Assembly: GCA_902564695.1 (NCBI GenBank)
Contig: CACFCB010000012.1
Coordinates: 1-39,373, forward strand
DNA length: 39,373 nt
Reading direction: 5' to 3'
From: an uncultured Prochlorococcus sp.
Lineage (GTDB): Bacteria > Cyanobacteriota > Cyanobacteriia > PCC-6307 > Cyanobiaceae
In this document: positions 2,060-22,265 of the stretch, piece by piece
Position numbering within the stretch: the stretch's first letter is position 1
Layout of the letters: the number at the start of each line of letters is the position of its first letter
Translations under genes and position numbers: made by a program
The notes under the pieces: model-generated
Seen by the model: the letters and a program-made list of their open reading frames with translations, nothing else
Database searches by the model: none
Told to the model about the DNA's origin: nothing

Positions 2060-2066
2060 TATTCAA

Positions 2067-4981: not shown

Positions 4982-4991
4982 TTAAATCTAA

Positions 4992-6016: not shown

Positions 6017-6049
6017 CCTTATTTTTTGTTAACTTAAATAATTTTATAT

Positions 6050-7384
6050 TTATAATAGTAAGAGAATAATACTTATAGGGAATAATGCTCTAGTTAGTAG
6101 TTTAATTAGTATTTTTCTATTATTCTTAATTGCCATTTCAGGATTCTCTGGAGGATATAACATGCCTCTATCATTATGTACGTTATTAGTAGTTGAGTTT
6201 GTTGGATGTATATCCCAGGGCTTTTCTTTATTTAATGCATTTTGTAACCAATCCCAATAATATTGAACCATTTTATCTTCTCCCAGTAATTTAACATTAT
6301 CTTTTTGTATGTAACCCATTTGTTCATTAAATGTCTGGGTTTTTAAAACCTGATAATCTTCTGTGAAAATTTTGTAAAATGTCTTTCTTTGCAAATTACT
6401 AAATAAAACTAAATTCGTAAATAATTTATTCTTTAGAAATTTTCTATAATGTCTGACTATTACCCTTGCTCTATTATTTCCTAGTGGAATATGATCTAAA
6501 ACTTGAATATATCGGGTGCTTTCAGGAGATCCTTTGTAAATAAATATTCTGCCAGGTGGGACAAATTTTATTCTTATAAACTCTTCTTGAGAACTTGTTT
6601 TATAAGAATATATACTTTCTATTTGCCTGTTATCACGTTTTATTTTTTGATTGAAACTAGTTATCGTATTTCTGTTTACATTTTTATCTGGAATTGTATT
6701 TCCATGCATCCAAAAGACATGTAATATATCAAGATGATTTTCAATAATCCTTGCCCAATCTGCCTTGAAATCTACATAAACTTCTTCATATTCATATTCC
6801 GAAGAAGGAAATCCATAAGAATCTGGTAGTAAACTATTCAAGGAAGATTTTATTTCAAAATCTTCAATATTTGATTGAGGTGTGCCAGTGTAATAAATAT
6901 AAATATAACCTTCTTTTTCTACACATGGATATTGGAGTAACTTTATACTCTTTGCATAGTTATCGTAATTTGAATCAATGATATGTTGGCAAGTTATTCT
7001 GTCTAAATTTGTGCAACTACCTTGTGATGAAAACCTTGCTCCATGATATGGACATACAAGTTGACCATTAATTACTTCGCCACCTAAGAAAGAAGCGCCT
7101 CTATGAGGACAGATATCTTTTACACATCTAACGATATTCTCTCTATCACGATACAAAACAAGAGGCTCATTATAAATTGTGAAGAAGTTTAATTTTCCTT
7201 CTTTCAATTCTTCACTACTTGAAACTGAATACCAACCTAATAGGCCATTTGTAAGTTGATTTATAGGTTTTGATGCTGTATTCTCTTGGCTTTTTAAACT
7301 TTTATGGTCATCATAATTTGAACTAATGAGATTATTAGTCTCATAATCAATGGATTTATTATCTTTTCCTTTTTCTTCCTTCAT
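6050..7384 (-). CDS. Rieske [2Fe-2S] oxygenase, pheophorbide a oxygenase / Lls1-like (444 aa)
   Basis: The Rieske cluster ligands are visible as C92-x-H94 (CPHRG) and C111-x2-H114 (CPYHG). The mononuclear iron site lies in NHLDILHVFWMHGN (H222, H227 as likely ligands). A C-terminal hydrophobic stretch (about residues 426-444) would anchor it in the membrane, as in plant PaO, Tic55 and CAO relatives. In these families the substrate is a chlorophyll derivative; in cyanobacteria the homologues are often named cell-death suppressor Lls1-like and the actual substrate is not settled. The first 40 residues are a charged, low-complexity extension. The ABC ATPase gene follows 33 bp downstream. Confidence 0.88.
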   Translation of the reverse strand: MKEEKGKDNKSIDYETNNLISSNYDDHKSLKSQENTASKPINQLTNGLLGWYSVSSSEELKEGKLNFFTIYNEPLVLYRDRENIVRCVKDICPHRGASFLGGEVINGQLVCPYHGARFSSQGSCTNLDRITCQHIIDSNYDNYAKSIKLLQYPCVEKEGYIYIYYTGTPQSNIEDFEIKSSLNSLLPDSYGFPSSEYEYEEVYVDFKADWARIIENHLDILHVFWMHGNTIPDKNVNRNTITSFNQKIKRDNRQIESIYSYKTSSQEEFIRIKFVPPGRIFIYKGSPESTRYIQVLDHIPLGNNRARVIVRHYRKFLKNKLFTNLVLFSNLQRKTFYKIFTEDYQVLKTQTFNEQMGYIQKDNVKLLGEDKMVQYYWDWLQNALNKEKPWDIHPTNSTTNNVHNDRGMLYPPENPEMAIKNNRKILIKLLTRALFPISIILLLL

Positions 7385-7573
7385 ATACGAGTAGATCTTT
7401 TAAAGAGATAAAAATTACCTCATTTGAAAAGAATTCTCCTGTTATTATGTCCCCAAAAAAATAGCACCTAAAGCCTTCATAAATCGATTAAATTTACATA
7501 AAAAAACTTGGAAGCAAAATAGTACTTCTTTATAGATTTTATTAATGCTTTTTTCGCACAGGATAGAATATCG

Positions 7574-7765
7574 TTATATGTTGTTTGGAGTTAGCTCAAT
7601 GCTTTCTATAAATTCAGAAGCTTCTTCAATGTCATTGCAAAACTTGCATGTACCAAGGTAACAACCTAGGTATCGCATAAAGGATGTTTTGCCACCTGTA
7701 AGCTGATATTCATGTATCGTTCCTCCTTGAGGTGTTGCTTTTACGAGTTGTGGTAAAGCGGCCAT
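7574..7765 (-). CDS. Small conserved-looking protein with a Cys-rich centre (63 aa)
   Basis: Unrecognised. The centre reads YLGCYLGTCKFCND, giving C35, C40 and C43 with a CxxC pair, preceded by a Gly/Thr-rich segment and followed by an acidic tail. Starts with ATG and stands alone, with about 190 bp to the Rieske gene. A metal- or redox-binding role is possible from the cysteines only. Confidence 0.6.
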   Translation of the reverse strand: MAALPQLVKATPQGGTIHEYQLTGGKTSFMRYLGCYLGTCKFCNDIEEASEFIESIELTPNNI

Positions 7766-7895
7766 TTAGAGAATTCTTTTCTCGTAATTTGGTTACATAA
7801 CGGATACGTTGCAATAGGTAAAATTACCAAAAAGCACGAATATTCTTTTTTCTTAAGATCTATAGTTTGATTTCTTATGATCCCATCCCTGTAAA

Positions 7896-8066
7896 TTAAT
7901 CGGTATATCCATCATCGTCTTCTGAATTAATGATGCGAGGGGTGTTTTTCATATGTTCATCCCATGGGTGAACATATGATTCTTTATCTGAGTAAACCTC
8001 ACTTTTTAGCTCTTCTATCAAGGTTTCGAATTGTTTTATTATCCTTTTTAGATTGTCTTTTTTCAT
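7896..8066 (-). CDS. Small acidic protein (56 aa), short gene on the minus strand
   Basis: An ATG at 8066 opens 56 codons ending with TAA at 7896. The product starts MKKDNLKRIIKQFETLIEEL, probably a helix, and ends with NTPRIINSEDDDGYTD, a very acidic tail. Composition, helix periodicity and the patterned C-terminus look like a genuine protein, unlike the hydrophobic Phe/Ile-rich translation of the opposite strand. No signal peptide or membrane segment. Family not recognised; small proteins of this size are common in Prochlorococcus. A CATATGTTCA/TGAACATATG inverted repeat (7950-7978) falls inside the coding sequence. Confidence 0.65.
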   Translation of the reverse strand: MKKDNLKRIIKQFETLIEELKSEVYSDKESYVHPWDEHMKNTPRIINSEDDDGYTD

Positions 8067-8883
8067 TTATATCTTTTGTAATTGAGGTCTATGTTTTTAT
8101 TATAATTACCAACAGTGTAAGAAATTTCTTTTATTTTATTATCTTTAAGCTTATTTAAATTAATTATGATATTTCAATATTCTCATGGGTATTAACTTTC
8201 TTCCTTATAAAAAATCAAAATCTAGTAATTAAAATTGCTTTTTGATGATTGGGCTTAAAAATATTAAGTAATTAATAAACTGTTTTGATTCTCCTGATAG
8301 TTGAAATGATTGATTCAGTTAAAAATCCCATAAAAATTTATTTTCTACTGGTTTATGCAATAATTCTTCCAGTCTAAGTTTTTCTGGAGTTTGGCAATAT
8401 AATGGTTTAAATTAAAAACTTTAGATTATATATTTTACTAATGAAATAAGACGTGTAATTTAAATCTTTTATTTTATTTGTATTAGTTATTAATAATGAT
8501 AAATCTATAAGAGAAAAAATATGCTTTTTGCTTATTAGATTTTGGTTGACATTGTTGATTTATCTTACACATAGTATATTGAAAACGTTGTTTTTCTAAC
8601 TTGAGTATTAATTTAAGTTGAATTATTTAATATTCAAGAGAATTGATAATGAAAATGTAACTATTTTCTACTAGACCCAAGATCTCAACTAGCATAATTA
8701 TATACAAATTTATACATTTATAAAGATGATTATTGAAAGAGATACAAGCGAAACTTTCTCTGAAGGGCTTAATCTTCTATTGAATACTCATGCAAATGAG
8801 CTAAGCCCTTAAAGGTTATGAAAAAGAAGTGAGATATAATACTAAAGCAATCCAAGTCGTAATCAGATTTATTTTTACATTAG
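8067..8883. other. Gene-poor AT-rich stretch of about 820 bp
   Basis: I see no convincing intact gene. It contains a 26-codon open minus-strand stretch without a start codon (about 8316-8407, ending ...KPVENKFLWDF) that reads like the tail of a lost protein gene, and a 28-codon plus ORF at 8726-8812 starting MIIERDTSETF just before the phosphofructokinase remnant, which could be part of that pseudogene. Overall this looks like eroding DNA. Confidence 0.5.
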
Positions 8884-9378
8884 GAAGAATCTGTTTCTAT
8901 CGAATTTGATGGAGAGAGAGGGGTTAAAAGGGCTTTAGAAAAACAATTAGAAAAAAATCAACACGCAGTTATTGTTTTAGGTGAATGAGCTGGTCAAGAC
9001 CTAATAAAAGGTTTTAATCAAGAAAAAGATGCCTCATGAAATATATTAAAAATGATATTGGTTTATTTCTTAAAGAACAAATACTCAACTCATTTACTAA
9101 AAGTGGTAAAGAAATATGAGTACGTTATCTTGATCGAAATTATCACATTAGATGTGTGAGAGCGATAGCTTCTGATTCAATTTTTTTTCTACCAATTAGC
9201 ATAGCAGTCTGTTCATGCCGCTATGGCAGGAAAAACTAATTTAGTTATTGGGTATTGGAATAATTTTTTCACACATGTTCCAATTTCTTTGGCAACTACT
9301 GAACGTCGTAACATAGATATTAAAGGTGCTCTTTGGAATGGAGTATTAAGCTAAAATCAACAATATCAGCTCTTGTAA
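8884..9378 (+). pseudogene. pfkA: Decayed C-terminal half of plant/cyanobacterial-type 6-phosphofructokinase
   Basis: Reading across two frames recovers a continuous match to the C-terminal half of group-III (plant and cyanobacterial) phosphofructokinases: HAVIVLGE then AGQDL, KDAS then NILKNDIGLFLKEQI, VRYLD.NYHIR, YQLA.QSVHAAMAGKTN and FTHVPISLATTERR. In-frame stops are TGA at 8986, 9037 and 9117 and TAG at 9202; two frameshifts lie in homopolymers (A-tract near 9046-9051 and T-tract 9181-9188). TGA 8986 and 9037 replace conserved glycines, one base change from GGA. The N-terminal ATP/F6P half cannot be recognised upstream. So the enzyme is lost. This agrees with the general view that Prochlorococcus lacks a normal glycolytic PFK, and the remnant shows an ancestor had one. 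Confidence 0.85.
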
Positions 9379-9640
9379 GTTTTGGGAATATTTCTTGGTT
9401 TGTTTGTAAATTTAACTCCCTTTACTTTACTAAAATTATTTTAATTATTTCAATATATACCCTAGGGATAATAAATCAATTTTTTAAAATCAAAAAATAT
9501 AGAACAACTGACAAATGAATATAAATATTCAATAATATAATTATGTTTAAAAATTATTATCAATCCGTTGGAATTAAGTAAAGTCATTATAATTTAAATT
9601 TTATACAAATAAAACTCTATAATCATATAATTATTATATA

Positions 9641-10939
9641 TTAACCAGCTTCTACTACGCTTTCATTGCTTGATATTACACTAATACATAAGGCCATTAC
9701 ACCAGATATTGCAGCCCTAGGTAATGTCATTATAGGATCAATGGCTAACAAAAGTAATAGAATAGGAGGTGCAGGTACTTGAAAGAACATTAGAGCTATA
9801 GCTATAGTAGGTACAACCGCCACACCATTTAATCCAGCGGATGAAATTCCAGTAACTACTCCTAAAATAATTATTTGTATCAAAACTAATGGGGAAAGTC
9901 TAACTTCATATAGGTTTAGAGCAAATACAATTGCAATGACATTGTAAACAACATTACCAAGTCTAGATATCAATAAGCTTAAAGAAGTAGATGCTTCAAC
10001 TTGACTAGATGCTCTGCCAATAAATTTTAATGTGTTAGTAATTGTTGGGTAGCAAGCCATACTCGAACCAGTAGATAAACCAACAATAAAAACTGAATCG
10101 GCTGGGTTGGTTTCAAGTAATTTTTTTTCTTCTTTTGAAGTATACCTTTTAATTATTAATCTCGAGATTCCTAAACATGCAACGGCTGAAACTAGAATGC
10201 AAATGGTTACATTTAATAGAGCTATTATTATTTCTGTATTAATGCTAGTAATAGCACCAGCAATTAAACATATCAAAAGAATTGGAGAAAGAAGTAACAG
10301 TTCATCCAAAATTTTTACCGAAAGTGAATTTATACTTCTAAGTAATGAAACTAATGGTTTTGAAACATCCTGAGGAATAATAGACAATCCATAACCAGCA
10401 AGTAATGATCCTGAGATAACTTTAAGAGTGTTGCTATTTGCAGCGTCAGATAATATATTTGAAGGAATTACTGATTGAAGCCAGGAGGTATTATTAGCAA
10501 GTGGATCTGCAATATCTGAAGAGAAAACAGTTAAATTAATATCTGTAATATCTAGCATAAACTTACCAATAGAAACCTTTCCGTCAGGAGATAGTATTCC
10601 TGGCTTCTGGTAAAGTGAAAGAGCTAGAGCAAGAATACTTGCAACAAACGTAAAAATAATTAGCGATAAAATTAGTTTTCTTGCAAAGAAGTTATTTTTA
10701 TTTGATTTATCTAATGTAAGAATAGAGTAAACTGAAATAATTACTGCTGTTAAAACTAGAGGTATAGCAGGATAAGAAATTAATTGAATTAATGTAAATC
10801 CCAGATCATTCAAGGATCTTGATATACCAGGTAAGAATGTACCTATTATTAAGCCTAGTGGAAAGATAATCAGTAAAAAATACTTAGGTTTTCTTAATGT
10901 AGTTAAAATACTACGAAAATTTGTGAATGAATTTGTCAT
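9641..10939 (-). CDS. Divergent SDF-family (dicarboxylate/amino acid:cation) symporter (432 aa)
   Basis: Inner-membrane secondary transporter of the DAACS/GltPh fold. Family signs: FPLGLIIGTFLP at the first helix, QSVIPSNI...NTLKVISGSLLAG, and a re-entrant HP1 equivalent STGSSMACYPT where typical members have an SSS motif. The sodium-binding NMDG motif of TM7 is replaced by RLGNV, and the TM8 substrate region is IDPIMTLPRA, so ion coupling or substrate differs from glutamate or C4-dicarboxylate carriers. ATG 10939 gives a 7-bp gap to the preceding gene; an in-frame ATG at 10963 would overlap it. It is the last gene of the Mrp-ComA operon, next to a periplasmic binding protein, so organic-anion or amino-acid uptake is likely. 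Confidence 0.8.
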   Translation of the reverse strand: MTNSFTNFRSILTTLRKPKYFLLIIFPLGLIIGTFLPGISRSLNDLGFTLIQLISYPAIPLVLTAVIISVYSILTLDKSNKNNFFARKLILSLIIFTFVASILALALSLYQKPGILSPDGKVSIGKFMLDITDINLTVFSSDIADPLANNTSWLQSVIPSNILSDAANSNTLKVISGSLLAGYGLSIIPQDVSKPLVSLLRSINSLSVKILDELLLLSPILLICLIAGAITSINTEIIIALLNVTICILVSAVACLGISRLIIKRYTSKEEKKLLETNPADSVFIVGLSTGSSMACYPTITNTLKFIGRASSQVEASTSLSLLISRLGNVVYNVIAIVFALNLYEVRLSPLVLIQIIILGVVTGISSAGLNGVAVVPTIAIALMFFQVPAPPILLLLLAIDPIMTLPRAAISGVMALCISVISSNESVVEAG

Positions 10940-10946
10940 TTTTAAT

Positions 10947-11795
10947 TTAGTTAATTGGCTCATAAAAAGAAGAATAATCTTTCATAATTTCACTATCTGT
11001 TTTTATTTCCTTTCTTTTCAAATAATAATCAAGAATATCTGATAAATATGTATTTGCCTCAGTTGATAGGAATATAGACTTTTGATCAATTATGTCATCA
11101 AATAAAATTGGAACATATTCGATTGATAAATTAGGCTTCTGATAAACAATTTTTTTTATCTCGGTAGCATCTCTATAAATTGCATCTACCTTTCCTTTTA
11201 ACAATGCATTTTTGCATTCAGCCCAATTTTTATAACCAATTTTTTCGGCATTGCTAAAAAGAGAATTAGCATAAGTGTCATAAGCTGATCTATCAATAAA
11301 ACCTATTTTCATCGATGAATTTAATAGCTCATTACCATAATTAGGATTATCAGGAGCAACTCCTAATGAATTAACAAACTTTCGGTTAGACAGAAGGGCG
11401 TGCCTAAAATTCATATATTCATGGGGATGAGCATCAGACATTCTTTTAAACGTTGTTCCTAATTTACCAATAGCCATATCAAAATCACCTGCACCAGATC
11501 TTTTTACTAAATTATTAAAGCTTGTTGAATCTCTATCAAATACAACTCTTACTCCAATTTCTTTTGCAAAGCCTTCAATGATATCAATATCGTAACCTTT
11601 TAGTTTTTTATCTTTAGGATCTAAATAATAAAAAGGAGGTGTTGTATAAGGTGGCAATCCAACATTTAAATAGCCACGTTGAATGATCTTGTCAATATAT
11701 ATATTTTCAGCAGCATATACTTTCTGATTGAGTTGAAATAGAAAAAAAAGAAAAAATATAAAAATAAAATTTCTTAACAAATAGAAAAATTTCAT
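10947..11795 (-). CDS. Periplasmic solute-binding protein, family 3 (about 282 aa)
   Basis: A signal peptide is clear: MKFFYLLRNF followed by a Phe/Ile-rich core and a cleavage site at VYA-AEN. The mature protein has the SBP_bac_3 pattern: IIQRGYLNVGL, PPFYYLDP...LKGYDIDIIEGFAKEIGV, FDMAIGKL, and KGKVDAIYRDATE, as in polar amino acid binding proteins. Such proteins normally deliver to an ABC permease, but none is adjacent; instead an SDF-type symporter follows by 7 bp. I chose ATG 11795, which puts the signal peptide at the N-terminus and avoids the overlap with the VOC gene given by an upstream start. Ligand unknown; amino acid or small organic acid. Confidence 0.85.
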   Translation of the reverse strand: MKFFYLLRNFIFIFFLFFLFQLNQKVYAAENIYIDKIIQRGYLNVGLPPYTTPPFYYLDPKDKKLKGYDIDIIEGFAKEIGVRVVFDRDSTSFNNLVKRSGAGDFDMAIGKLGTTFKRMSDAHPHEYMNFRHALLSNRKFVNSLGVAPDNPNYGNELLNSSMKIGFIDRSAYDTYANSLFSNAEKIGYKNWAECKNALLKGKVDAIYRDATEIKKIVYQKPNLSIEYVPILFDDIIDQKSIFLSTEANTYLSDILDYYLKRKEIKTDSEIMKDYSSFYEPIN

Positions 11796-11802
11796 AAATA
11801 AA

Positions 11803-12234
11803 TTAAAAAGGAAATTTAAGTTTTGTATAATATTTAAACTCAACAAAATTTTGAGATGGATCTATTAAAGAGAAAGTCATGTGTTCATCTTTTCTACCTT
11901 TAAATCTATAATCTAATTTACTATATATACTTTTAATATTATAGGCAAGTGATTTTTCATACATCGCCTCAATTAGTTCTTGACTTAAAAATGTTAGACC
12001 AAAATGATTTGGATAAAAACTAGCAGAAGTTGAAAAATCATTGTTTTTGGTCAAATGTGTTACAAGTTGGATATTTAATATCCCAAAGGTAATTCTGTCA
12101 TTAAGTTCTCTAAAGACTGTGGCCCCAATGCAATTACAATAAAAATCTTTTGAATCGGCTAAATTATAACTTTTTATTGCAATATGTACTAAATAACCAT
12201 GATCTATAGTGGGTTGCAGATTTATATCATTCAT
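11803..12234 (-). CDS. VOC-fold (glyoxalase/dioxygenase superfamily) protein (143 aa)
   Basis: Single vicinal-oxygen-chelate unit pair: start LVHIAIKSYNLADSKDFY is the typical first beta-alpha of VOC proteins, with H17 as first metal-ligand candidate, H77 (NHFGLTF) and E132 (NFVEFKYY) as the others. The second ligand position is not obvious. Residues 118-134 (HMTFSLIDPSQNFVEFK) match the usual C-terminal substrate/metal strand. It overlaps the 3' end of the ComA-family gene by 8 bp, so translation is coupled. Reaction unknown; lyase, isomerase or dioxygenase activity are all possible in this superfamily. Confidence 0.8.
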   Translation of the reverse strand: MNDINLQPTIDHGYLVHIAIKSYNLADSKDFYCNCIGATVFRELNDRITFGILNIQLVTHLTKNNDFSTSASFYPNHFGLTFLSQELIEAMYEKSLAYNIKSIYSKLDYRFKGRKDEHMTFSLIDPSQNFVEFKYYTKLKFPF

Positions 12235-12952
12235 TTACTAATAAGGTGTCTGATCTAAGTTTGTTACGCAATGCATGAACAGGCAATATGTTTTGAAGAC
12301 TTATGTTTCCTAAATTAACTTTTGAACCATAATGATTTATTAAATAAGATTGAATTTTTTTTGTTGGCGCTTCAAAAAGTATCTTATTTAAATCTATTTC
12401 TAATAAGAGATTATTTATAATATCTTTTTTCAAAGTACCATCTTGATTGGCAATACCTGCTGTTCCAGATTCTCTGGTCTCTAAAATTACAAATTTTGCT
12501 CCTGCCTTTAAAGAAGATAATGATTGATTTATCCAATCCTTTGAAGTTAGCAAGGGAAATTTTATGTCATTTTTTCTGCCTACCTCACTCATCACGTTGA
12601 AATCCTCAGAATATTCTGTTACAAGTTCATAATATTCTTGATCGGGTATATCAATAGTACCTCTACTTAACTCAACCCATTTTAGATTATGAGATTTTAG
12701 ATATTCTTTAAAAGTTAATAGTTTATTTTTATTATAAAAATATTCAAACATAGTTCCACCTAGAATTGGGATAATCTCATTTTTTTCACAAAAAGCTTTT
12801 TTTTTCTCAAATTCAGGATCAATTAATGAACTACCCCAACCAAATTTGTATATATCAATTATTTTAGAATAAGTGCTTAAATAATACTTAACTATTTCAA
12901 ATGGTGTGCTTGCGTCTAAAATATGGTTGATAGATTTCATTATACGATTCAT
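12227..12952 (-). CDS. Phosphosulfolactate synthase (ComA/HSA32) family protein (241 aa)
   Basis: TIM-barrel family whose founding member ComA adds sulfite to phosphoenolpyruvate to give phosphosulfolactate, the first step of coenzyme M or sulfolactate synthesis; plant relatives are the heat-stress protein HSA32. Conserved blocks present: DASTPFE, KFGWGSSL (about 36-43), ILGGTMFE (63-70), VELSRGTIDIP (93-103), MSEVGRK (121-127), ILETRESG (156-163), LFEAP (192-196) and VNLGNIS. All expected acidic and basic active-site positions look kept, so an active enzyme is plausible. The frame opens at a TTG at 12985; ATG 12952 is taken as start. No ComB phosphatase or ComC dehydrogenase is in the window, so the product's fate is unknown. 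Confidence 0.85.
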   Translation of the reverse strand: MNRIMKSINHILDASTPFEIVKYYLSTYSKIIDIYKFGWGSSLIDPEFEKKKAFCEKNEIIPILGGTMFEYFYNKNKLLTFKEYLKSHNLKWVELSRGTIDIPDQEYYELVTEYSEDFNVMSEVGRKNDIKFPLLTSKDWINQSLSSLKAGAKFVILETRESGTAGIANQDGTLKKDIINNLLLEIDLNKILFEAPTKKIQSYLINHYGSKVNLGNISLQNILPVHALRNKLRSDTLLVNE

Positions 12953-13003
12953 TATATTTTTAAAGCTTAATTCATTAGTTTGCAAATTTCAATATTATTT
13001 AGT

Positions 13004-13756
13004 TTATTTATCTGACCCTTGTATCTTTTGATTGTAATTATTATCCATGTCCACTATGTTTGCAGTAAGTAAGGCAATACATAAGATACCTAAAATACCA
13101 AATACTGTAGATACTAATTTCCCTAAAACACTTACAGGAGTAACATCACCATAACCAATAGTTGTAACACTAACTACTGAAAACCATAGAGATCGTATTA
13201 TAGAACCAAAATGCTGAGGATCATTGTTTTTCTCAATTACGTACATTGTAGAGGCAAATAGGTACGTCAATATAGAAAGTATTCCAATTGGGAAAAAAGT
13301 TCTGGTAGGATTTGAAAGAAATATAAAAGCTAATCTTTTCATTGCTACTCTTAGTTTTGAATCATAAATATTGAAAATAGTTTTGAGGATATATGCTGTA
13401 ATTACCAAAGGTGATTCGTTATTAAAATAACCTGTTGTTAATAATAAAATAGATGAGAAATCAAAGAAACATCTTGGTTTAAAAAAAATAAAAATTAGTG
13501 ATTTAATTTTATAATCATTTTTAGACCAAGTATTGATAATCTTACCTATATAATCAGAAAGGAAAAACAACTCAATTAAATTAAGAAAGAAATCTAATAA
13601 AAGTGTGGTTTGATTATTAATTAAAGTTGATTCAGTACTGACTGCAATTTCAATGAATAATAAAATAGTTACAAAATAAACTATATAATTATAATTCTTG
13701 CCTGGTAAAGAATCTAAATAATCACCAAAATACCATTGATCACTATATTTATACAT
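13004..13756 (-). CDS. Voltage-gated-like K+ channel, no RCK domain (250 aa)
   Basis: Six-helix inner-membrane ion channel. The selectivity filter TTIGYGD (residues 198-204) is the exact K+ channel signature, preceded by the pore helix SLWFSVVSVT and followed by the last helix LVSTVFGILGILCIALLTAN. Residues 24-145 form four helices of voltage-sensor type, but the S4-like segment has few regularly spaced basic residues (LRVAMKR), so voltage sensing is doubtful. The cytosolic tail is about 18 residues, lacking RCK or cNMP domains. It starts 2 bp after mrpB, so it should be made together with the Mrp antiporter, giving a K+ path that could balance charge during Na+/H+ exchange (inference). Confidence 0.92.
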   Translation of the reverse strand: MYKYSDQWYFGDYLDSLPGKNYNYIVYFVTILLFIEIAVSTESTLINNQTTLLLDFFLNLIELFFLSDYIGKIINTWSKNDYKIKSLIFIFFKPRCFFDFSSILLLTTGYFNNESPLVITAYILKTIFNIYDSKLRVAMKRLAFIFLSNPTRTFFPIGILSILTYLFASTMYVIEKNNDPQHFGSIIRSLWFSVVSVTTIGYGDVTPVSVLGKLVSTVFGILGILCIALLTANIVDMDNNYNQKIQGSDK

Positions 13757-13758
13757 AA

Positions 13759-14460
13759 TTATAAAATACCGCGCTTAATTATAAAAAGTCTTATAATTGA
13801 CCATGTACCTACAGTCACTTTAAGTGCACAAATAATATTAAGAATGGGTATTATTAAATTCTGTGGAAGATAAATAAATGAAAATAAAGAAGAATAAGAA
13901 GCAAAGCTAATTATAGATAAGAGTATAAAAGCAATCACGGCTATCTTTTCTATACTTATAATTTCATAATTGGAATAAATTCTTTCCAATCTACTTAGAC
14001 GACCAGTAATCATTAGCAGAGTAATAGATGTAGCGCCTGCGACTCCTGAAGCAAACCCACCACCGGGAGACAAATGACCTCTAATCGCTAATTCGAAGCA
14101 CAAAAATGAGGATAATAATGCAGCAAAATCTAATAATGAAATTAATGTTGGATCCTTAATAGCTATTAAGGATTTTTCAGATTTCTCATGAGCTAATAAA
14201 ATTTTCACTCCTAATCCTGCAATCGTGAAAACAGTTACTTCACCAATTGTGTCGAAGAGTCTGGTCCCGAGGATTACAGAGGTTACTGTATTTGGTATTA
14301 AGGTTTTTTCTGATAAATAATTTACTATTTCTTCAGTATTCCTGACTTCTATTTCATTATTAGAAAATAGAAGAACAATCATTACAGAGGCGATTGCAGA
14401 TAAATATAATAGCGATTTTATAAATTCATATCTGTAAACCTTTTTTATAGTATTAGTCAT
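13759..14460 (-). CDS. mrpB: Mrp antiporter subunit B, with MbhE-like N-terminal part (233 aa)
   Basis: Membrane subunit of a multisubunit Na+(K+)/H+ antiporter. The C-terminal half has the MnhB domain with its Gly-rich motif RGHLSPGGGFASG (around residues 125-138). The N-terminal half contains FDTIGEVTVFTIAGLGVKIL, the motif of MbhE or the very end of long MrpA proteins. The protein is therefore longer than typical MrpB (about 140 aa) and seems to be a fusion of MbhE and MnhB, as in other cyanobacterial-type Mrp systems. It overlaps mrpA by 4 bp (ATGA) and is followed 2 bp later by the K+ channel gene. Confidence 0.9.
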   Translation of the reverse strand: MTNTIKKVYRYEFIKSLLYLSAIASVMIVLLFSNNEIEVRNTEEIVNYLSEKTLIPNTVTSVILGTRLFDTIGEVTVFTIAGLGVKILLAHEKSEKSLIAIKDPTLISLLDFAALLSSFLCFELAIRGHLSPGGGFASGVAGATSITLLMITGRLSRLERIYSNYEIISIEKIAVIAFILLSIISFASYSSLFSFIYLPQNLIIPILNIICALKVTVGTWSIIRLFIIKRGIL

Positions 14461-14981
14461 GTGTTTATAATATTTATAGATAAATTTTTAATAGTATTAG
14501 TTGCCAGTAATTCTTCTCTTAGTATAGGAGATTCCACTAATAAGTCATTACCTATTATGGCTGCATGTGGAGAACCATTTAGAACGTTAGTGTTATCCCA
14601 ATCGACATTTCCAGAATGAATTGTATTTATAACTTTAACTTGCTTGAAAACTATATTAAAGTTCAACTCTGAAAATAAAAGATGTAAGTCATTTTCCAAT
14701 GACTTATTTATTGTATTATCATTTTCTACTAAAATTATTACAGAATAACAACCTTTTATCGCAATTATATACAGAAGTGTTGATAGTAGTGTTCCAACAA
14801 GTACTTCTGTGAGTGCGACATCAGGGGCTCCAAGAAGTGAATAAATTAAAGCAGCAGTGGAACCCAAAAATGATCTATAAATTAATCCTTGTATTGGTGA
14901 TTGATTTTTGATTAACAATATACCAATTATTGGTAATAGAAGCTCAAAAGGTAATAAGGTAGCAATTTGAATATTAGTCAT
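14457..14981 (-). CDS. mrpA: Short-type Mrp antiporter subunit A (DUF4040/MbhD domain, 174 aa)
   Basis: Contains the motif GAPDVALTEVLVGTLLSTLLY, hallmark of the C-terminal domain of MrpA/MnhA (MbhD, DUF4040). The large NuoL-like N-terminal region of full-length MrpA is absent, as in cyanobacterial mrp operons of order C-D-E-F-G-A-B. About three membrane helices (residues 5-75) are followed by a soluble tail of about 100 residues that I do not recognise. Overlaps of 4 bp on both sides (with mrpG and mrpB) show tight translational coupling. Confidence 0.88.
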   Translation of the reverse strand: MTNIQIATLLPFELLLPIIGILLIKNQSPIQGLIYRSFLGSTAALIYSLLGAPDVALTEVLVGTLLSTLLYIIAIKGCYSVIILVENDNTINKSLENDLHLLFSELNFNIVFKQVKVINTIHSGNVDWDNTNVLNGSPHAAIIGNDLLVESPILREELLATNTIKNLSINIINT

Positions 14982-15247
14982 GATTTATCTGATAATGAGC
15001 CCAGTAAATAACCAACTACAGTATTCCAAATTGCTAGAGAAAATATTGAAATTAGAAAGATTGGCCATTTATTTGGTGCCCTAATTAAAAAGGATAAAAG
15101 AATAATAATAGAACCAACCGTATCTGAAACAGTCAGAGTATGTAATTTATATAATAGATTATTGTTATGTGTTAACAATGGAGTTGTTCCCCAAAGCCAT
15201 AAAAACAAGCCAATAAATGCTAAAAGGTATGAAAATGATTGTTGCAT
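14978..15247 (-). CDS. mrpG: Mrp antiporter subunit G (89 aa)
   Basis: Small three-helix MnhG/PhaG subunit; the motif LLYKLHTLTVSDTVGSIIILL corresponds to the family's RLHaLTkaDTlG signature. ATG 15247 leaves 1 bp to mrpF; an in-frame ATG at 15268 would add seven residues and overlap mrpF by 20 bp, and I cannot exclude it. The gene overlaps mrpA by 4 bp. Confidence 0.87.
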   Translation of the reverse strand: MQQSFSYLLAFIGLFLWLWGTTPLLTHNNNLLYKLHTLTVSDTVGSIIILLSFLIRAPNKWPIFLISIFSLAIWNTVVGYLLGSLSDKS

Positions 15248-15248
15248 C

Positions 15249-15560
15249 TTAATTTCTATTAGTACCATATAAAAGTGTTAATGTAATCAAACCTGCATCT
15301 CCTACTATTAAAATAGTTGTCCCTATTGATCCAATAGACCAGTCGCCAATGAACACAGCATAAGATATAATTAATATCGCTATCTTAGATCCAAAACTTG
15401 ATGATGCAGCTATTTGTGTGAGGATTTTATTAGAATTAGTTATTGAAATCATAGGCATTAAGGAACAAATCAACATTGTGTAAATAATTAATAAATCAAA
15501 ATTATTTAACTCATTAGTTTTAAATGCAGTTACTAAAAATGTGAATAGGTCTGTATACAT
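15249..15560 (-). CDS. mrpF: Mrp antiporter subunit F (103 aa)
   Basis: Three predicted membrane helices and length fit MnhF/PhaF; the helix ending GTTILIVGDAGLITLTLLYG corresponds to the family's C-terminal helix. Divergent in the middle: the usual R-x2-D-R-VVALD loop is replaced by SNKILTQIAASSSFGSK, so identity rests partly on position between mrpE and mrpG. It starts 2 bp after mrpE. Confidence 0.8.
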   Translation of the reverse strand: MYTDLFTFLVTAFKTNELNNFDLLIIYTMLICSLMPMISITNSNKILTQIAASSSFGSKIAILIISYAVFIGDWSIGSIGTTILIVGDAGLITLTLLYGTNRN

Positions 15561-15562
15561 AA

Positions 15563-15976
15563 TTAATTTTCCTTTGTTTCCTTAACAATGTGTACTCTCC
15601 ATGTTTTTTTATCAGCTCTGCGTGTTACAAGACTCAATGGTGTAATTGTAATTCTTAGCAAATCTATAAAATTAATAAAATGAGAACCAGTTGATTTAAC
15701 AACTGATTCTTGCTCAATAAATAAGTCAGAAGGATTTTTAATCAAAATCAAATCTATTGTTTCCTTGAGTGCTTGAGGCACAATCATTATAGTAATAAAA
15801 ATTTCTTTAGTTAATAAAAATAAGTCAATTTTTTCAAACTTTCCAATAGGAATCATGGATGAAATGATTAAACCTATTAACATATTCAAATAACTAAAAT
15901 TTGAAGTAATAAGTGACCAAACAAATGTTCGGAAAGCAATTGTAATAAAGTATTTTATGTAACGAGTAATAGTCAT
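15563..15976 (-). CDS. mrpE: Mrp antiporter subunit E (137 aa)
   Basis: MnhE family: N-terminal membrane helices, then a soluble C-terminal part with the conserved ITITPLSLVTRRADKKTWRV, equivalent to the family's TLTPGTLT...VH block. Needed in characterised Mrp complexes for assembly. Its ATG overlaps the mrpD stop by 4 bp. Confidence 0.87.
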   Translation of the reverse strand: MTITRYIKYFITIAFRTFVWSLITSNFSYLNMLIGLIISSMIPIGKFEKIDLFLLTKEIFITIMIVPQALKETIDLILIKNPSDLFIEQESVVKSTGSHFINFIDLLRITITPLSLVTRRADKKTWRVHIVKETKEN

Positions 15977-17472
15977 AATTTAAAGTAAGTTAAATTTGCT
16001 AGAAGAAACGCAGCGACAATAAACGGTGCACCAATAATATCAATTGTCTTTCTTATATTAGATGATTCAATATTCTTTTCTATACCCATAACACATAGAT
16101 AAAATATTCCACCAATAAATAAGGCAGAAAGACTGTTTGTAAAATAAATTGATTTGAGCAAATCAGAACGTAGAAAAGAACTAGAAATTAATAATATAAT
16201 ACATAAAATAAATATAAAGTTATCATTGCTTATAAAAGATCGTATGCTAATAGATGGTATTTTCTTATAATAAGTTCTTCTAAATCTATTCAAATTAGAT
16301 ATTATTAATTTTACGTAAATTGCTGAAGTAAGCAAAGCAGATGTTGAAACTATAAGTTGAGCAGATGGGGGTAAATCATATTTTAATAGTGTTTTAGTTG
16401 TAAATCCTGCAATAAATGGAAAACCAGTAATTGAAAGACTAGCAATAATAAATGTGATTAGTCTTATTAAATCTTGACAATATAATATAGAGATGTCATT
16501 TGTACCTCTTTGATTACTAATTTTTTCATCTGAATTATCATTATGCGTATTAAATAATAGACACTTACATATACCATGCTGCATAACATATAAGCATGCA
16601 TAAGAAGGAGAGAGTATAGATATTCCTAATTGTGATACTGAGCTCCATCCTAATGTTCTTCCATCATCTGTTTCAAAAATTGCCAATATTGCCGCCAATA
16701 TTGCACTTAGTACGCCTATAACTATCATTGAATTACTTATTGGAATAAGTATTTGACTCATTCTTGAAATTGGAGCAATTCCTGCACATGTAACGCAACC
16801 CGAAAGTATTGATGATGTTTGTATTGATGCATTTGTATATATATTTGGGACCCAAATACCACACAAAAATATTCCAGATTTTGTTAAAAGACCTGCAACA
16901 ATAAGGCAAAGGGCTGTACTAGGAGCCAAGGAAAGATCATCGAGTGCAAATGATCCCGTGTATGTGAATGCCTGAATTACACCTATCAAATAGATGAGCA
17001 TTGCTAATCCTCCACCTATTAAATATTGGAATGATTGAAACAATGATTTATCAGTATTCTTATCTGCTATTAGAAGAAAGGCACAAAAGCCAGTAAGCTC
17101 CAGTGCTATATATATACTTATTAAATCTTTTGATATAAAACAAATAGATAAAGCTGAACATAAAACAAGTGATATTTGATAAAAATAATGAGAAAAATAT
17201 TTCCTTCGGAGAGAAAAAGTAATTAGAAAAACGACTGATGTTCCAAATATTAAGGGTAGGCTAAATTCGTCAAAGGATAATAATATTCCACCTTGATTTA
17301 TTAGAGTAAAAGAATTATTAAAACCATTTAGCAAACCAAATAAGCTTAGAAAGCTATTAATTAATAAAGTAAAAACTCCTACAAAAAAGAATTTATTAGG
17401 TAGCAGACAACCTAAAAAACCTACAATTACAGGCAGAAAAATCAGGCAGGTTAATATTATATTTATATCCAT
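15973..17472 (-). CDS. mrpD: Mrp antiporter subunit D, NuoN/MnhD-like (499 aa)
   Basis: The proton/cation-translocating subunit, homologous to complex I NuoL/M/N. About 14 membrane helices. Key charged residues of the family are kept: E125 in ALELTGF (TM5), K198 in LLTKSGIF (TM7) and K303 in GICKCLLF (TM8 region). The usual His before the ALLSG loop is lost (IYTNASIQTSSILSG). It is the only antiporter-like subunit encoded here, whereas many cyanobacterial operons have two D genes or a long A subunit; a second one may be elsewhere. Starts 1 bp after mrpC. Confidence 0.93.
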   Translation of the reverse strand: MDINIILTCLIFLPVIVGFLGCLLPNKFFFVGVFTLLINSFLSLFGLLNGFNNSFTLINQGGILLSFDEFSLPLIFGTSVVFLITFSLRRKYFSHYFYQISLVLCSALSICFISKDLISIYIALELTGFCAFLLIADKNTDKSLFQSFQYLIGGGLAMLIYLIGVIQAFTYTGSFALDDLSLAPSTALCLIVAGLLTKSGIFLCGIWVPNIYTNASIQTSSILSGCVTCAGIAPISRMSQILIPISNSMIVIGVLSAILAAILAIFETDDGRTLGWSSVSQLGISILSPSYACLYVMQHGICKCLLFNTHNDNSDEKISNQRGTNDISILYCQDLIRLITFIIASLSITGFPFIAGFTTKTLLKYDLPPSAQLIVSTSALLTSAIYVKLIISNLNRFRRTYYKKIPSISIRSFISNDNFIFILCIILLISSSFLRSDLLKSIYFTNSLSALFIGGIFYLCVMGIEKNIESSNIRKTIDIIGAPFIVAAFLLANLTYFKL

Positions 17473-17473
17473 A

Positions 17474-17827
17474 TCAATCTTCCATATCCCTAAAACGTAG
17501 AAGAGGATTATTTCTGCTTAACCTTAATGCAATCGCAGAAAGTAGAGCTTGAGTTGCAAATCCTATAACTATTGCAGTTAAAATAATAGCTTGAGGGTAT
17601 GGATCAGCGTAATTAGAATATCTTTCTAAACCAGTTATTGGGGTCTGCATTCCTGAAGAAGCAGCAATTAGGACGAAAAGAGAAATAGTAGCAGTATCTA
17701 TTACATCTAAAGAAAACAAAGCATTAAAAATATTTTTTGAATTAATTAATCCGTAACATCCTATTATTATTAATGTTACAAGAGGAACAAACAAAATGTA
17801 TCTTGTAAACTCTGATCCTAAATTCAT
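17474..17827 (-). CDS. mrpC: Mrp antiporter subunit C, NuoK-like (117 aa)
   Basis: Three-helix MnhC/NuoK family subunit; the motif DPYPQAIILTAIVIGFATQAL is the clear family signature (DPlPQALvLTAIVI). First gene of the 12-gene minus-strand operon. The 233 bp upstream of it should hold the operon promoter; no specific regulator site was recognised there. Confidence 0.93.
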   Translation of the reverse strand: MNLGSEFTRYILFVPLVTLIIIGCYGLINSKNIFNALFSLDVIDTATISLFVLIAASSGMQTPITGLERYSNYADPYPQAIILTAIVIGFATQALLSAIALRLSRNNPLLRFRDMED

Positions 17828-18060
17828 GTATGTATAACTAATACTTTAAATTTATATATAAAAAGAAATAGCACCCATATTATTTATATTTTATTTAGAA
17901 CATTTAAAAAAACATAAAGAATAATCGTCTGTTTCCGACTCATTGTATTAAAAAGTATTAAAAAATTTTATTTACTTAGATGGGTTTATAAATTCTAAAT
18001 ACCTTTGTAAAATATAAAATAATTTTGATATATTTATAGTCGAATTAACATTTCTTAAAT
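17828..18060. other. AT-rich upstream region of the mrp operon
   Basis: Very A/T-rich, no ORF of note, no strong hairpin. Presumed promoter region for mrpC because it is the only sizeable gap upstream of the 12-gene run. Confidence 0.4.
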
Positions 18061-18204
18061 CTATTCGTCGCTCATTTCCAAATCTAGGGATATAACGTCC
18101 TCGCAAGCATTGATTGAATTTATCGCTTCTGTAATAGTATCTTGGACGTATTCTATGTCGTCTACGTTTAGATCCAATTTTGCTCTAAGCTTGTAAATTG
18201 TCAT
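18061..18204 (-). CDS. Small acidic protein (47 aa), short gene
   Basis: ATG at 18204, stop TAG at 18061. The product begins MTIYKLRAKLDLNVDDIEYV and ends in ISLDLEMSDE; it has alternating beta-like (YKLRAKLDL) and helical (VQDTITEAINSINAC) segments and a net negative charge, a composition typical of a folded small protein rather than chance translation. It has one Cys and no membrane segment. Family not recognised. It lies 131 bp after the MIP channel gene and 233 bp before mrpC, same strand. Confidence 0.65.
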   Translation of the reverse strand: MTIYKLRAKLDLNVDDIEYVQDTITEAINSINACEDVISLDLEMSDE

Positions 18205-18335
18205 AGATAATTTAAATTGTTAATATTTTAATCTTAGTTCAGGAAATAAATAATGAGATAAATTCTTCTTATTTAGAGATGTTTTAATTACTTGATAATC
18301 TTTTAATTTTGATTGGGTATATAAATAATGATTCT

Positions 18336-18971
18336 CTATTGGAATTTTATTTTTGATGTTAAATTAAGCATAATTAGGATTATTAATTCTATAAATAAGA
18401 TCGACAAAATTCCAGTTGCTCCTGACTTGTGAATTCCAATTGCGATTGCGGGATTTAATATTCCTGAGGAATTTAAACCACCAAAGATTAATATTGGGAT
18501 AAGGCCAAAACCTACAACAATTCCAGATAGCGGTCTTGACTCGGGGCAGACTTTACCCTCTTCACTCCATGTTTTAATAAGTGATAAAAAGATGAATGTA
18601 AGCAATCCTTCGCTTATTAAGTTGACACTTGTTAGAGAAGTATCTATTTCCCTTAACGGATAAAAAGAAAAAACAGCCGTAGCGCCAATTAGTTGAAATG
18701 TTATATATAAAATTGTATTAATTAATAATGATTTATTTTTGTACCAATTATTCCCATGGTTAGATTGCATAAACATTAATGTAACAAGAGGGTTGAAATG
18801 AGCACCACTTATTCTTCCAAAAAGATGTATGAGAAAACATAATGTAAGTCCTATAAAAATTGAGGACTCTACTATGCTAAATGATGAATTTCTACTTGTA
18901 ATTATTGATATTGAAAGTATAGATGTACCTAAAAGCTCAATGAAAGAACGATAAATAACTGAATTAATCAA
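18336..18971 (-). CDS. MIP-family channel, aquaporin/glycerol facilitator-like (211 aa)
   Basis: Six-helix inner-membrane channel with two half-helix motifs: SGAHFNPLVTL (NPL, residues 60-62) in place of the first NPA and GILNPAIAIGI (NPA 173-175). The Arg that normally follows the second NPA and forms the ar/R filter is replaced by Ile, which should widen and de-charge the pore. FIELLGTSILS at the N-terminus matches the family's AEFLGT. The only usable start is TTG 18971: the frame is closed by TAG a few codons upstream and contains no earlier ATG. Substrate may be a neutral solute rather than water. Confidence 0.85.
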   Translation of the reverse strand: MINSVIYRSFIELLGTSILSISIITSRNSSFSIVESSIFIGLTLCFLIHLFGRISGAHFNPLVTLMFMQSNHGNNWYKNKSLLINTILYITFQLIGATAVFSFYPLREIDTSLTSVNLISEGLLTFIFLSLIKTWSEEGKVCPESRPLSGIVVGFGLIPILIFGGLNSSGILNPAIAIGIHKSGATGILSILFIELIILIMLNLTSKIKFQ

Positions 18972-19969: not shown

Positions 19970-20395
19970 TCAAAGTTTACAAGACCCATTTTCGTAAATG
20001 AGTTCATTTACAACATATTTTGATACAGCCATATCACCATTAGAAAGCTTTTTAACCTTCCAAGTTTGATCTGCATCCATTCTTAGACGTGAGCTATGAG
20101 ATGCTGGAGGAGTCCAAACACTTGCGTGCCAATTAACAATCACATGTAATTCACATTCATCATTTTCGATGTTGATAATATCTGCTACTTTTAATGTGTG
20201 TTTTTCATCGAAGAATAAATTAATTACAGTTTCATACCATTGTTGATAACCACTGAAGCCATTTAATGATGCTTCCGGAAAAACCAATTCAACATCATCC
20301 GTTAACAATTTCTTGTATGAATCTATAGGGGCATGAATATCTAATAAACGATACCAATTGGATGCAAATGACCAAATTTCTGGATGTGTAAACAT
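19970..20395 (-). CDS. NTF2/SnoaL-fold protein (141 aa)
   Basis: Pattern of SnoaL-like proteins: N-terminal helix WSFASNWYRLLDIHAPIDSY, DDVELVFPEASLNGFSGYQQWY, then antiparallel strands with HVIVNWHASVWTPP and RMDADQTWKVKK. Related in fold but not near-identical to the next gene. It follows the ThDP enzyme gene by 48 bp and is likely in the same transcript. Confidence 0.75.
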   Translation of the reverse strand: MFTHPEIWSFASNWYRLLDIHAPIDSYKKLLTDDVELVFPEASLNGFSGYQQWYETVINLFFDEKHTLKVADIINIENDECELHVIVNWHASVWTPPASHSSRLRMDADQTWKVKKLSNGDMAVSKYVVNELIYENGSCKL

Positions 20396-20443
20396 AATTT
20401 TTTATTAAGATGAAAAATAAAGGAAATTAAAAGTACTAATTAG

Positions 20444-22165
20444 TTATTGTCCACAATGGACTCCAACTAATTCAGGATGAATATCACCATCTAGGACTAG
20501 ATTAATAAGGTAAGGACCATTATGGTTTAACATGTTTTGTATTGTTGATTTAACATCACTAGGTTTAATTACTCTTTCTGCGGGTACGGAGAAGCTTCTT
20601 GCAATATCATCAAAATATATTTCAGGGTTTGATAAATCAAATGCTAAAGGATATTGTCTATCCTTAATATTTCTTTCTTCCCAAAACTTATTTATATTTA
20701 ATTGTAATAAATGATATGAGCGGTTTTGACAAACTATAAATTTAGCATTTATTCCATGCCTTGCTGCTGTCCAAAGGCTTTGGATTGTATACATACTTCC
20801 ACCATCTCCTGAAAAACCAATTACAACTTTATCAGGATGTGCGAGCTTAACACCAATAGCCCCTGGAAATCCTGTGCCTAAAGATCCACCTCTTGTAAGT
20901 AATCTATCACCAGGCTTTTTCCCAGGAATATATTTATTTATAGGAGGTGAATTAGTAAGTGCTTCATCAAATATTACGCTATTTTCTGGAAGTAATTCTG
21001 AAAGAGTTTTGATAAAGTAGCCTGACTTCATTGAGATATTTTTTCCATCATATTTTTCATCACTATGTATTGGGATTACTTCGTAATCTTTATCTATAGT
21101 ATTATTTAAGAGAGGTGAGTCCTTTTCATAAAGTTTTCTTCTTTCTTGAGCTTTTGCATGCCAGCTATTTGGTAATGCCTCTATCTTTGGAAGTAATGCT
21201 TTAAGAACAGTAGATGATTTAGCAACTATTGAAAAATCAACTCTATGGTTTTTTGCGATGTTATTAACATTAGTGTCAACATGAATAATTTTCGTATTTG
21301 GTGAAAAGATTTCACCAAGAGTAGGAAAAACTTCAGGTAGTAAATAACATCCTAAAGCAATACATAAATCACAATCCTTAGTGATAGGGAGACTGCTGTC
21401 CCCAAACATATGTCCAGTGCTACCATAGTTAAGTGGATGATTATCAGCAATATTAATTTCTCCTCCATCAGCGGTATAGACCTTGGCTCCTATTTTTTCC
21501 GCCAATTGTGTTGCAATATCAGTTGCATGAGTCCAAGCAACTCCATCGCCTAAAAGTAGAAGAGGTTTTTGGGAAGATTGTATTAGTTTGGTGATGTAAT
21601 CTAAATCTTCATTAACAGGAATAGTTCCTAAATTTGGAATGTGTGCTGGATAAATTTCTTCTGTAATTTCTGCATCTAAAATATCTTCAGGAAGACATAG
21701 ATAGACAGGACCACATGGAGGCGTAGAAGCTATTTTAATCGCTCTCCTTACCATTCTTAATAGACTGCTAGGATGCTGAACCATTGCTGACCATTTTGTA
21801 ACAGGTTCAGCCATAGCAACAAGATCAGCTGCCATCTGAGCATCCATAGCTTGATATTTAATACCTGAATCACCTCCAATAACAATCAATGGAGATTGTC
21901 CTTTCATAGCTTGGTACAAATTGCCAATTGCATTACCAAGGCCTGGAGAACTATGAATTTGTACAAGAGCTGGTTTAAATCGCGCACGTGCATAGCCATC
22001 TGCACATAAAACAGCAATGGATTCTTGCAGGGTTAATATGTACTTCATCTCTGGAACATCAGAGAGAGCATCTAAGAATCCTTGTTCCACAGTCCCTGGA
22101 TTCCCAAACATATGATCAAGATTGTTTGCCAAAAACTGCCTTAAGATGGCTTCATGTCCACGCAT
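20444..22165 (-). CDS. ThDP-dependent 2-oxoacid decarboxylase, benzoylformate decarboxylase-like (573 aa)
   Basis: Three-domain thiamine diphosphate enzyme. Catalytic Glu E48 (LQESIAVLCADGYAR), the benzoylformate-decarboxylase type loop IHSSPGLGNAIGNLY with H71, and the cofactor motif GDGGSM (453-458) followed by N481 for Mg2+. There is no FAD-type acetolactate synthase signature evident, and the H71 loop favours decarboxylation of a bulky 2-oxoacid to an aldehyde. It is surrounded by VOC, NTF2-fold and DJ-1 genes that commonly handle reactive aldehydes, which fits an aldehyde product (inference). Substrate unknown. Confidence 0.85.
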   Translation of the reverse strand: MRGHEAILRQFLANNLDHMFGNPGTVEQGFLDALSDVPEMKYILTLQESIAVLCADGYARARFKPALVQIHSSPGLGNAIGNLYQAMKGQSPLIVIGGDSGIKYQAMDAQMAADLVAMAEPVTKWSAMVQHPSSLLRMVRRAIKIASTPPCGPVYLCLPEDILDAEITEEIYPAHIPNLGTIPVNEDLDYITKLIQSSQKPLLLLGDGVAWTHATDIATQLAEKIGAKVYTADGGEINIADNHPLNYGSTGHMFGDSSLPITKDCDLCIALGCYLLPEVFPTLGEIFSPNTKIIHVDTNVNNIAKNHRVDFSIVAKSSTVLKALLPKIEALPNSWHAKAQERRKLYEKDSPLLNNTIDKDYEVIPIHSDEKYDGKNISMKSGYFIKTLSELLPENSVIFDEALTNSPPINKYIPGKKPGDRLLTRGGSLGTGFPGAIGVKLAHPDKVVIGFSGDGGSMYTIQSLWTAARHGINAKFIVCQNRSYHLLQLNINKFWEERNIKDRQYPLAFDLSNPEIYFDDIARSFSVPAERVIKPSDVKSTIQNMLNHNGPYLINLVLDGDIHPELVGVHCGQ

Positions 22166-22212
22166 AATTAAATAAAATTAGTTTGATCTAGTAGCTATTA
22201 GTTATAAATTAC

Positions 22213-22240: not shown

Positions 22241-22265
22241 ACAATTCCTCTAGTTATTAATTTTT

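Follow-up and report, generated by a model that had tools for sequence, protein, structure and literature searches.

We analysed a 39,373-nucleotide contig of an uncultured Prochlorococcus sp. (CACFCB010000012.1 in assembly GCA_902564695.1; the window, by which we mean the whole of this stretch), in which twelve genes run head to tail on the minus strand at positions 9641-17827, in the order mrpC-D-E-F-G-A-B, K+ channel (Kch), ComA-family enzyme, VOC protein, family-3 solute-binding protein (SBP3) and SDF transporter. Our survey of other genomes revealed that the linkage of these genes is not due to chance and that SBP3 and SDF, which the initial annotation had taken for two separate items, are a conserved pair reaching far past this operon. 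Judging from sequence, we postulate that the block may form one ion-and-solute circuit, whose core would be an SBP-dependent elevator carrier of the SDF family. Its substrate would be acidic, a C3/C4 compound and plausibly a sulfonate; our confidence in this reading is evenly divided.

Linkage of the block across picocyanobacteria

Genomes and loci are given below by the G and L codes of this analysis, and many of the genomes are incomplete. Among 400 genomes of the same family, 83 have mrpB matches but only 17 carry this Mrp lineage, its mrpB being 52-65% identical to that of the window (92% in G028; at least 53% by the measure of the mrpB search), whereas the main matches in the other 66 genomes reach about 45% or less. 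SBP3-SDF lies downstream on the same contig in 16 of the 17, and in the remaining one (G325) the contig stops inside ComA while an SDF fragment begins another contig. Of the 16 Mrp-lineage genomes besides the window, 15 keep the gene order, as far as the genes are present, all the way to SDF. SDFs of this kind were found in the same 17 genomes (as the fragment in G325) and in G092, where Kch-SBP3-SDF stand without Mrp beside them; G106 and G183 have a more distant SDF, and G336 gave a weak partial match. Identity of the block proteins to their counterparts in the window is about 35-80%, except in G028 (74-93%). The supposed connection of the Mrp genes with the ComA-symporter genes is thus borne out by gene neighbourhood.

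The pair is the constant element: ComA, VOC, the channel and Mrp are each absent from some loci, while SBP3-SDF is present in every block readable to its end. VOC and ComA are most often absent; ComA is missing in 4/17 block genomes (G346, G350, G355 and G403), which rules it out as an obligatory part, and the channel is missing in G355. Conversely, 13 of the 14 ComA genes (PF02679) found in the 400 family genomes, one per genome, lie within the block. Thirteen ComA neighbourhoods outside the window were read, twelve of them being this block and one (G210) an unrelated cluster. In a sample of 291 genomes of the class, ComA occurs in three, all of which have the block, and among 37 genus genomes it occurs in G000 and G028. 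Wherever both sides are readable, ComA stands between Kch and SBP3, and VOC follows it in 4 of the 12 blocks readable on that side. This distribution bears on a simpler explanation, namely a plain salt and pH homeostasis operon in which Mrp would export Na+, K+ would pass through the channel, SBP3-SDF would be a scavenger of glutamate or aspartate, and ComA-VOC would be a passenger. The frequent loss of VOC and ComA would fit it, as would the roles in salt tolerance and in the response to CO2 deficiency that PMC6337551 reports for mrp-like clusters of cyanobacteria; however, a passenger would hardly be so nearly confined to the block, nor does passenger status explain its fixed place well, and we regard this explanation as unlikely. 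The same paper reports that an mrp cluster is absent from WH8102 and MED4, which fits the patchy distribution seen here.

The one cluster unrelated to the block (L018, positions 33000-52000 of contig 7 of G210) has ComA and VOC adjacent, with a PEP_mutase homologue and a thiamine pyrophosphate (TPP) enzyme near them (5833-11068 and 16694-18442 of the locus); neighbouring open reading frames (ORFs) look by eye like non-ribosomal peptide synthetase or adenylation genes, and the cluster may encode a pathway to a natural product that contains a sulfo- or phospholactate unit. A phage origin of ComA found no support in a scan of viral contigs with one protein, which reaches close relatives only.

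A scan of named genomes with SBP3 gave 14 loci, ten in genomes already counted and four new (L092, L095, L097 and L103), and SDF adjoins SBP3 in all 14. Among the named relatives found, the Prochlorococcus single-cell genome AG-409-A10 (the same contig as G028) is the closest, with an SBP3 that is 91% identical. L103 is a ComA-SBP3-SDF fragment with 45-55% identity on a contig labelled as a Rubripirellula metagenome-assembled genome (a planctomycete bin), and this contig may be misbinned picocyanobacterial DNA. In a tree of seven concatenated proteins from 20 loci (unrooted, drawn with a midpoint), the ComA-less loci occupy several places, which fits repeated loss of ComA better than repeated gain at one spot.

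In the Mrp-less Prochlorococcus loci L092 (9066-9809) and L098 (3306-4046), SFAFDG replaces the TIGYGD selectivity filter; this suggests that K+ selectivity is kept only together with Mrp, although the two are close relatives and the change therefore counts as one event.

The SBP3-SDF pair beyond picocyanobacteria

Since SBP3 and SDF are present in every fully readable block, a profile of these SDFs (A3) was run over the 291 class genomes. Outside picocyanobacteria it gave 35 matches of at least 100 bits, of which 33 were read (G626 and G646, with matches above 100 bits, are left out of the counts). A same-strand SBP3 gene adjoins SDF in 29 of the 33 loci, 28 times upstream and once downstream, versus none within about 3 kb in 20 lower-scoring SDF loci taken from other genomes as a control (SDF re-detected in 19). 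Hence the two genes are better described as a pair than as separate items. The 19 control SDFs group in a single clade, separate from the 56 other SDFs, in a tree whose midpoint rooting shows separation and not sister relations. The pair also occurs on plasmids: the cyanobacterial SBP3 query matched 360 plasmid records, five of which were read, and in three of the four best matches (Gemmobacter, Cupriavidus and Paraburkholderia; 45-49% identity; the fourth, H3, and 355 weaker records lie outside the survey) SBP3, SDF, a racemase and a second SDF follow one another. No SDF lies within 3 kb of two weaker matches, one on an S. suis plasmid and one in a Sinorhizobium ABC operon, and a plasmid search with the window SDF as query gave no match. 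No ABC membrane or ATPase gene is found among the twelve genes of the window. The sampled neighbours of the distant loci include one gene (L167 4343-5584) whose product has a below-cut-off resemblance to an ABC binding protein for branched-chain amino acids.

A racemase gene precedes SBP3-SDF in 23 of the 33 cyanobacterial loci (the racemase profile was built from six of these 23). The best NCBIfam model of these racemases is the cysteate racemase CuyB (NF052483, cut-off 190 bits), which all three proteobacterial racemases exceed (213, 217 and 224 bits). Eight control racemases from genomes without an SDF match of 100 bits (plus-strand loci only, 8 of 14 matches) are glutamate racemases, with CuyB scores of 41-60.

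Many of the distant racemase-SBP3-SDF loci (among L159-L178 and L192-L204) adjoin a dCache/HAMP protein of about 500 amino acids, a possible sensor of the ligand of the pair.

SBP3 could itself be a sensor, which would bind an outside amino acid and gate the K+ channel or another membrane protein in trans, SDF being independent. SBP3 is related to the ligand domains of glutamate receptors (its weak matches include AvGluR1) and sits between the K+ channel and SDF; in Gemmobacter, too, the pair has near it an ion-channel gene akin to that of the block, and the dCache/HAMP neighbours would suit a sensory role. Against this, the stretches examined of the 33 distant cyanobacterial loci gave no channel match, SBP3 stays with SDF in L084 and L104, which gave no channel match either, and no locus read has the channel and SBP3 minus SDF, save G325, whose contig ends before both. 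Hence we consider a sensor quite improbable and the SBP-dependent transporter the better account of the pair.

Transporter residues and the proposed circuit

In the circuit that we propose, periplasmic SBP3 would capture an acidic C3/C4 metabolite and pass it to the SDF elevator carrier, a hand-over that would resemble the use of binding proteins in TRAP, TTT and TAXI-GltS systems. The gradients of Na+, H+ and K+ would be set by the Mrp Na+/H+ antiporter and the K+ channel, which would also compensate for the charge that is moved. Together with its phosphatase homologue ComB encoded elsewhere, ComA would in most of these genomes make sulfolactate, a nitrogen-free dianion that could be either a counter-ion of K+ or the compound handled by the transporter; a ComB homologue (PF04029) is present in G000 and in 23 of the 25 genomes that were searched, whether or not they carry ComA. 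From genes and their residues we infer that SBP3 feeds SDF, which class of substrate and which coupling ion are involved, in which direction transport runs, that ComA is active and what part K+ plays.

The main argument for a sulfonate, or its carboxylate analogue, is that two unrelated enzymes of C3-sulfonate type adjoin one type of transporter. Cysteate is the amino analogue of sulfolactate, and sulfolactate is the expected product of ComA and ComB. The C3-sulfonate theme of the initial annotation is therefore still plausible, given the near-confinement of ComA to the block, the wide presence of ComB and the cysteate-racemase-like neighbour elsewhere.

The residues of the carrier were compared, at positions numbered on aligned GltPh, in 42 SDFs (16 family sequences of A3, 23 racemase-linked and three proteobacterial). 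GltPh residues 310, 312, 401 and 405 and the NMDGT motif are those of the Na+ sites. In all 42, positions 312 and 405 lack Asp and positions 310 and 401 lack Asn (405 is Asn in the three proteobacterial SDFs), while Arg is found at 311 in 41 and at 397 in all 42; six more SBP3-linked SDFs without a racemase have similar residues, with the exception of L177. The window SDF has neither NMDGT nor the aligned residues at 310, 312, 401 and 405, which sets it apart from Na+-coupled carriers of the GltPh type. The earlier suggestion that Na+/H+ exchange feeds the symporter thus fared unevenly: the link itself recurs in G106, where a Na_H_Exchanger gene unrelated to Mrp takes the place of Mrp upstream of SBP3-SDF, but the loss of the Na+-site residues leaves the claim of a Na+-gradient drive without sequence support.

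Instead of an ion-coupled pump, SDF may be a uniporter, an exchanger or a channel for the organic anion, in which Arg would take the place of a bound cation. None of the 16 family A3 SDFs has Asp at 312 or 405, and 15 of them have Arg at 311, as such a carrier might; however, generic control SDFs also have Arg at 311 (16/19), so that Arg alone says little, and the presence of Na+/H+ antiporters of two families next to the pair speaks for ion coupling. We think an uncoupled SDF possible, if doubtful.

The substrate side of the carrier differs between the two groups of loci. In GltPh, Asp394 holds the amino group of the substrate and Arg397 its side-chain carboxylate. Asp394 is retained in 19 of the 23 racemase-linked SDFs (Asn in four) and in all three proteobacterial ones, which would fit an amino acid such as cysteate or aspartate, while the block SDFs would fit a hydroxy acid. 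In SBP3, the Arg and Asp aligned with ligand-binding residues, which we take to be the carboxylate and amino-group ligands of amino-acid SBPs, are kept in 12/12 family sequences and throughout another 34 aligned rows, of which 32 are distinct.

Several observations weigh against the SBP-dependent circuit or parts of it. Because ComA is missing from 4/17 blocks, sulfolactate cannot be needed by the core, and ComA itself does not reach the ComA equivalog TIGR03849 (173.8 of 280 bits). L092 and L098 have no Mrp upstream. SBP3 is absent next to four related SDFs, which all come from family f16, and since profile A3 was built from SBP3-linked SDFs, adjacency among their relatives partly reflects shared ancestry. 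The cyanobacterial racemases score only 165-181 bits on CuyB (below the cut-off in 11/11 scanned), and all 14 racemases, these included, pass the general amino-acid racemase model TIGR00035. At position 394, the 16 block-linked family SDFs have Thr in 13, Ser in one, Met in one (G106) and Asp in one (G092), and this replacement argues against an amino-acid substrate; the ComA-less L081, L082 and L083 also have Thr there, hence it is not tied to ComA itself. Conversely, the kept Asp of SBP3 does not seem to fit a hydroxy acid well, so that SBP3 and the block SDF would point to different chemistry.

More tentatively, we speculate that SBP3-SDF may add another class to the secondary transporters that depend on a binding protein, one with the elevator fold of GltPh, shared by cyanobacteria and proteobacteria and specialised in C3 sulfonates and their carboxylate analogues: cysteate or aspartate where the racemase adjoins, sulfolactate or malate where ComA adjoins. 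In marine picocyanobacteria it would be wired to the Mrp antiporter and the K+ channel, and a nitrogen-free sulfonate anion and K+ would be managed together.

Gene parts, genomic setting and known systems

Pfam and NCBIfam were used to assign the window proteins (Table 1). The twelve minus-strand genes of the initial annotation were all found as ORFs in the order given there; Pfam names ten of them (SDF, SBP_bac_3, Glyoxalase for VOC, ComA, Ion_trans_2, MnhB, MbhD, MnhG, Proton_antipo_M and Oxidored_q2), and E and F are placed by position and orthology. Two start codons, those of SBP3 and ComA, probably move (to 11795 and 12940, respectively), the latter being where the G028 orthologue begins. 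The reported spacing of 1-51 bp consequently fails for the Kch-ComA gap, which becomes about 63 bp. A consensus scan found no excess of promoter-like sites (60 vs 70.3 in shuffles) or terminator-like sites (4 vs 3.0). The 508-bp gap upstream of mrpC holds a 47-codon ORF that is well kept in G028, unlike most of the surrounding DNA.

Table 1. Genes of the block and an upstream ORF, with positions in the window
Feature	Position	Strand	Assignment and remarks
mrpC	17474..17827	-	Oxidored_q2
mrpD	15973..17472	-	Proton_antipo_M; sole large antiporter-like subunit of the block
mrpE	15563..15976	-	By position and orthology; orthologue in L019 matches MNHE below cut-off
mrpF	15249..15560	-	By position and orthology alone; no family match
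mrpG	14978..15268	-	PhaG_MnhG_YufB; precise start uncertain
Short mrpA	14457..14981	-	MbhD domain only
mrpB	13759..14460	-	MnhB
K+ channel (Kch)	13004..13756	-	Ion_trans_2, Ion_trans; TIGYGD filter; 250 aa, no other domain found by Pfam
ComA-family enzyme	12227..12940	-	ORF readable from TTG at 12985; likely start 12940
VOC protein	11803..12234	-	Adjoins ComA
SBP3, family-3 solute-binding protein	10947..11795	-	Signal-peptide-like start by eye; ORF readable from TTG at 11846
SDF (DAACS) transporter	9641..10963	-	Without canonical Na+-site residues
47-codon ORF upstream of mrpC	18061..18204	-	Conserved with G028; possibly part of the operon

All seven subunit positions A-G of an Mrp (CPA3) antiporter are filled and syntenic. 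The window mrpE and mrpF are too divergent for a Pfam match, and the mrpE orthologue reaches 24.0 bits on MNHE (cut-off 27). MrpA is not the large form with its own antiporter-like domain; it has 174 aa, and a similarly short MrpA (168 aa) occurs in G119 and G273, cyanobacterial Mrp loci outside the block. SDF matches PF00375 at 129.4 bits (cut-off 27.9) over residues 31-432 of 440, and ComA matches PF02679 at 203.6 bits (cut-off 25.2). L174 (positions 1-8032, G432) contains an SBP-less SDF of the same group and, about 5.4 kb away on the opposite strand, mrpA and mrpB.

The assembly to which the window belongs, as contig C12, comprises 1.44 Mb and is 72% complete. Since synteny with four complete genomes of the genus stops near 7.6-8 kb, and the genes tested from 9.6-39 kb had no match in the next 13 kb of those genomes, the stretch from about 8000 to 39373, comprising the block and its upstream genes, is a probable accessory genomic island. 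A tRNA-borne island was rejected, as the window has no tRNA, and the G+C content of the block (about 0.27-0.29) is not distinct from much of its flanks. G028 has the same gene run, its contig ending soon after SDF; the Rieske flank is on another contig there, behind 7.3 kb of other DNA. Upstream of the block lie genes for a TPP enzyme, a DJ-1-like protein, a SnoaL-like protein (below the cut-off), a second VOC protein (VOC2) and an aquaporin. The TPP enzyme (20444-22165) has no close homologue in six complete genus genomes, which gave matches of about 29% only. The DJ-1-like, TPP-enzyme and 141-aa genes (19970-23123) have homologues of 57, 51 and 43% identity in the same order at 6840-10190 of L202 (cyanobacterium G551), where they sit downstream of racemase-SBP3-SDF.

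The block ties ComA, which is rare in cyanobacteria, to ion transport, and it predicts, in a way that can be checked, sulfolactate in Prochlorococcus and Synechococcus. SDF is the archetypal family of elevator carriers and has many solved structures, so that an SDF paired with an SBP would allow a direct test. We found no description of the operon or of the pair in the open-licence literature searched, most subscription journals lying outside that search, though a domain network of SBP3-type proteins in PMC2950845 includes the Na+:dicarboxylate symporter domain, so that by 2010 the two could be seen to be associated as domains.

Each part of the block has known relatives. ComA is homologous over nearly its full length to the phosphosulfolactate synthases of M. 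jannaschii (1qwg, E 5e-36) and B. subtilis (1u83, E 1e-42), with the blocks KFGWG, GGT.FE, RESG and FEAP in common, but it falls below the archaeal equivalog cut-off and lies within a transport operon. The Mrp genes share the order C-D-(E)-F-G-A-B and the short MrpA with other cyanobacterial clusters (as in G119 and G273, which have no block), whereas those of the window are a separate lineage, extended by the channel, ComA/VOC and SBP3-SDF. Like DAACS/SDF carriers such as GltPh and DctA, the SDF protein consists almost wholly of the SDF domain and retains residues aligned with Asp390 and Arg397, but NMDGT has become mostly [SA]RxGN, positions 310, 312, 401 and 405 are changed, and an SBP3 gene stands alongside. 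A periplasmic SBP with an ion-gradient-driven organic-acid carrier is also found in TRAP (2.A.56) and TTT (2.A.80) systems (PMC5812351), although these use other SBP and carrier families, and Pfam found no DctQ/DctM or TctA/TctB in the operon proteins. TRAP and TT were, according to PMC12344293, the only earlier secondary families known to use a soluble SBP, and the same source describes TAXI and GltS as working together as SBP and carrier in Bordetella pertussis (BP0403-GltS). The resemblance to TAXI-GltS is close, as in both cases an SBP of a family usually tied to another type of transporter has its gene beside a presumed elevator-type secondary carrier; the partners differ, however: there, with L-glutamate binding measured, they are a TAXI protein and GltS, and here family 3 (PF00497) and SDF (PF00375).

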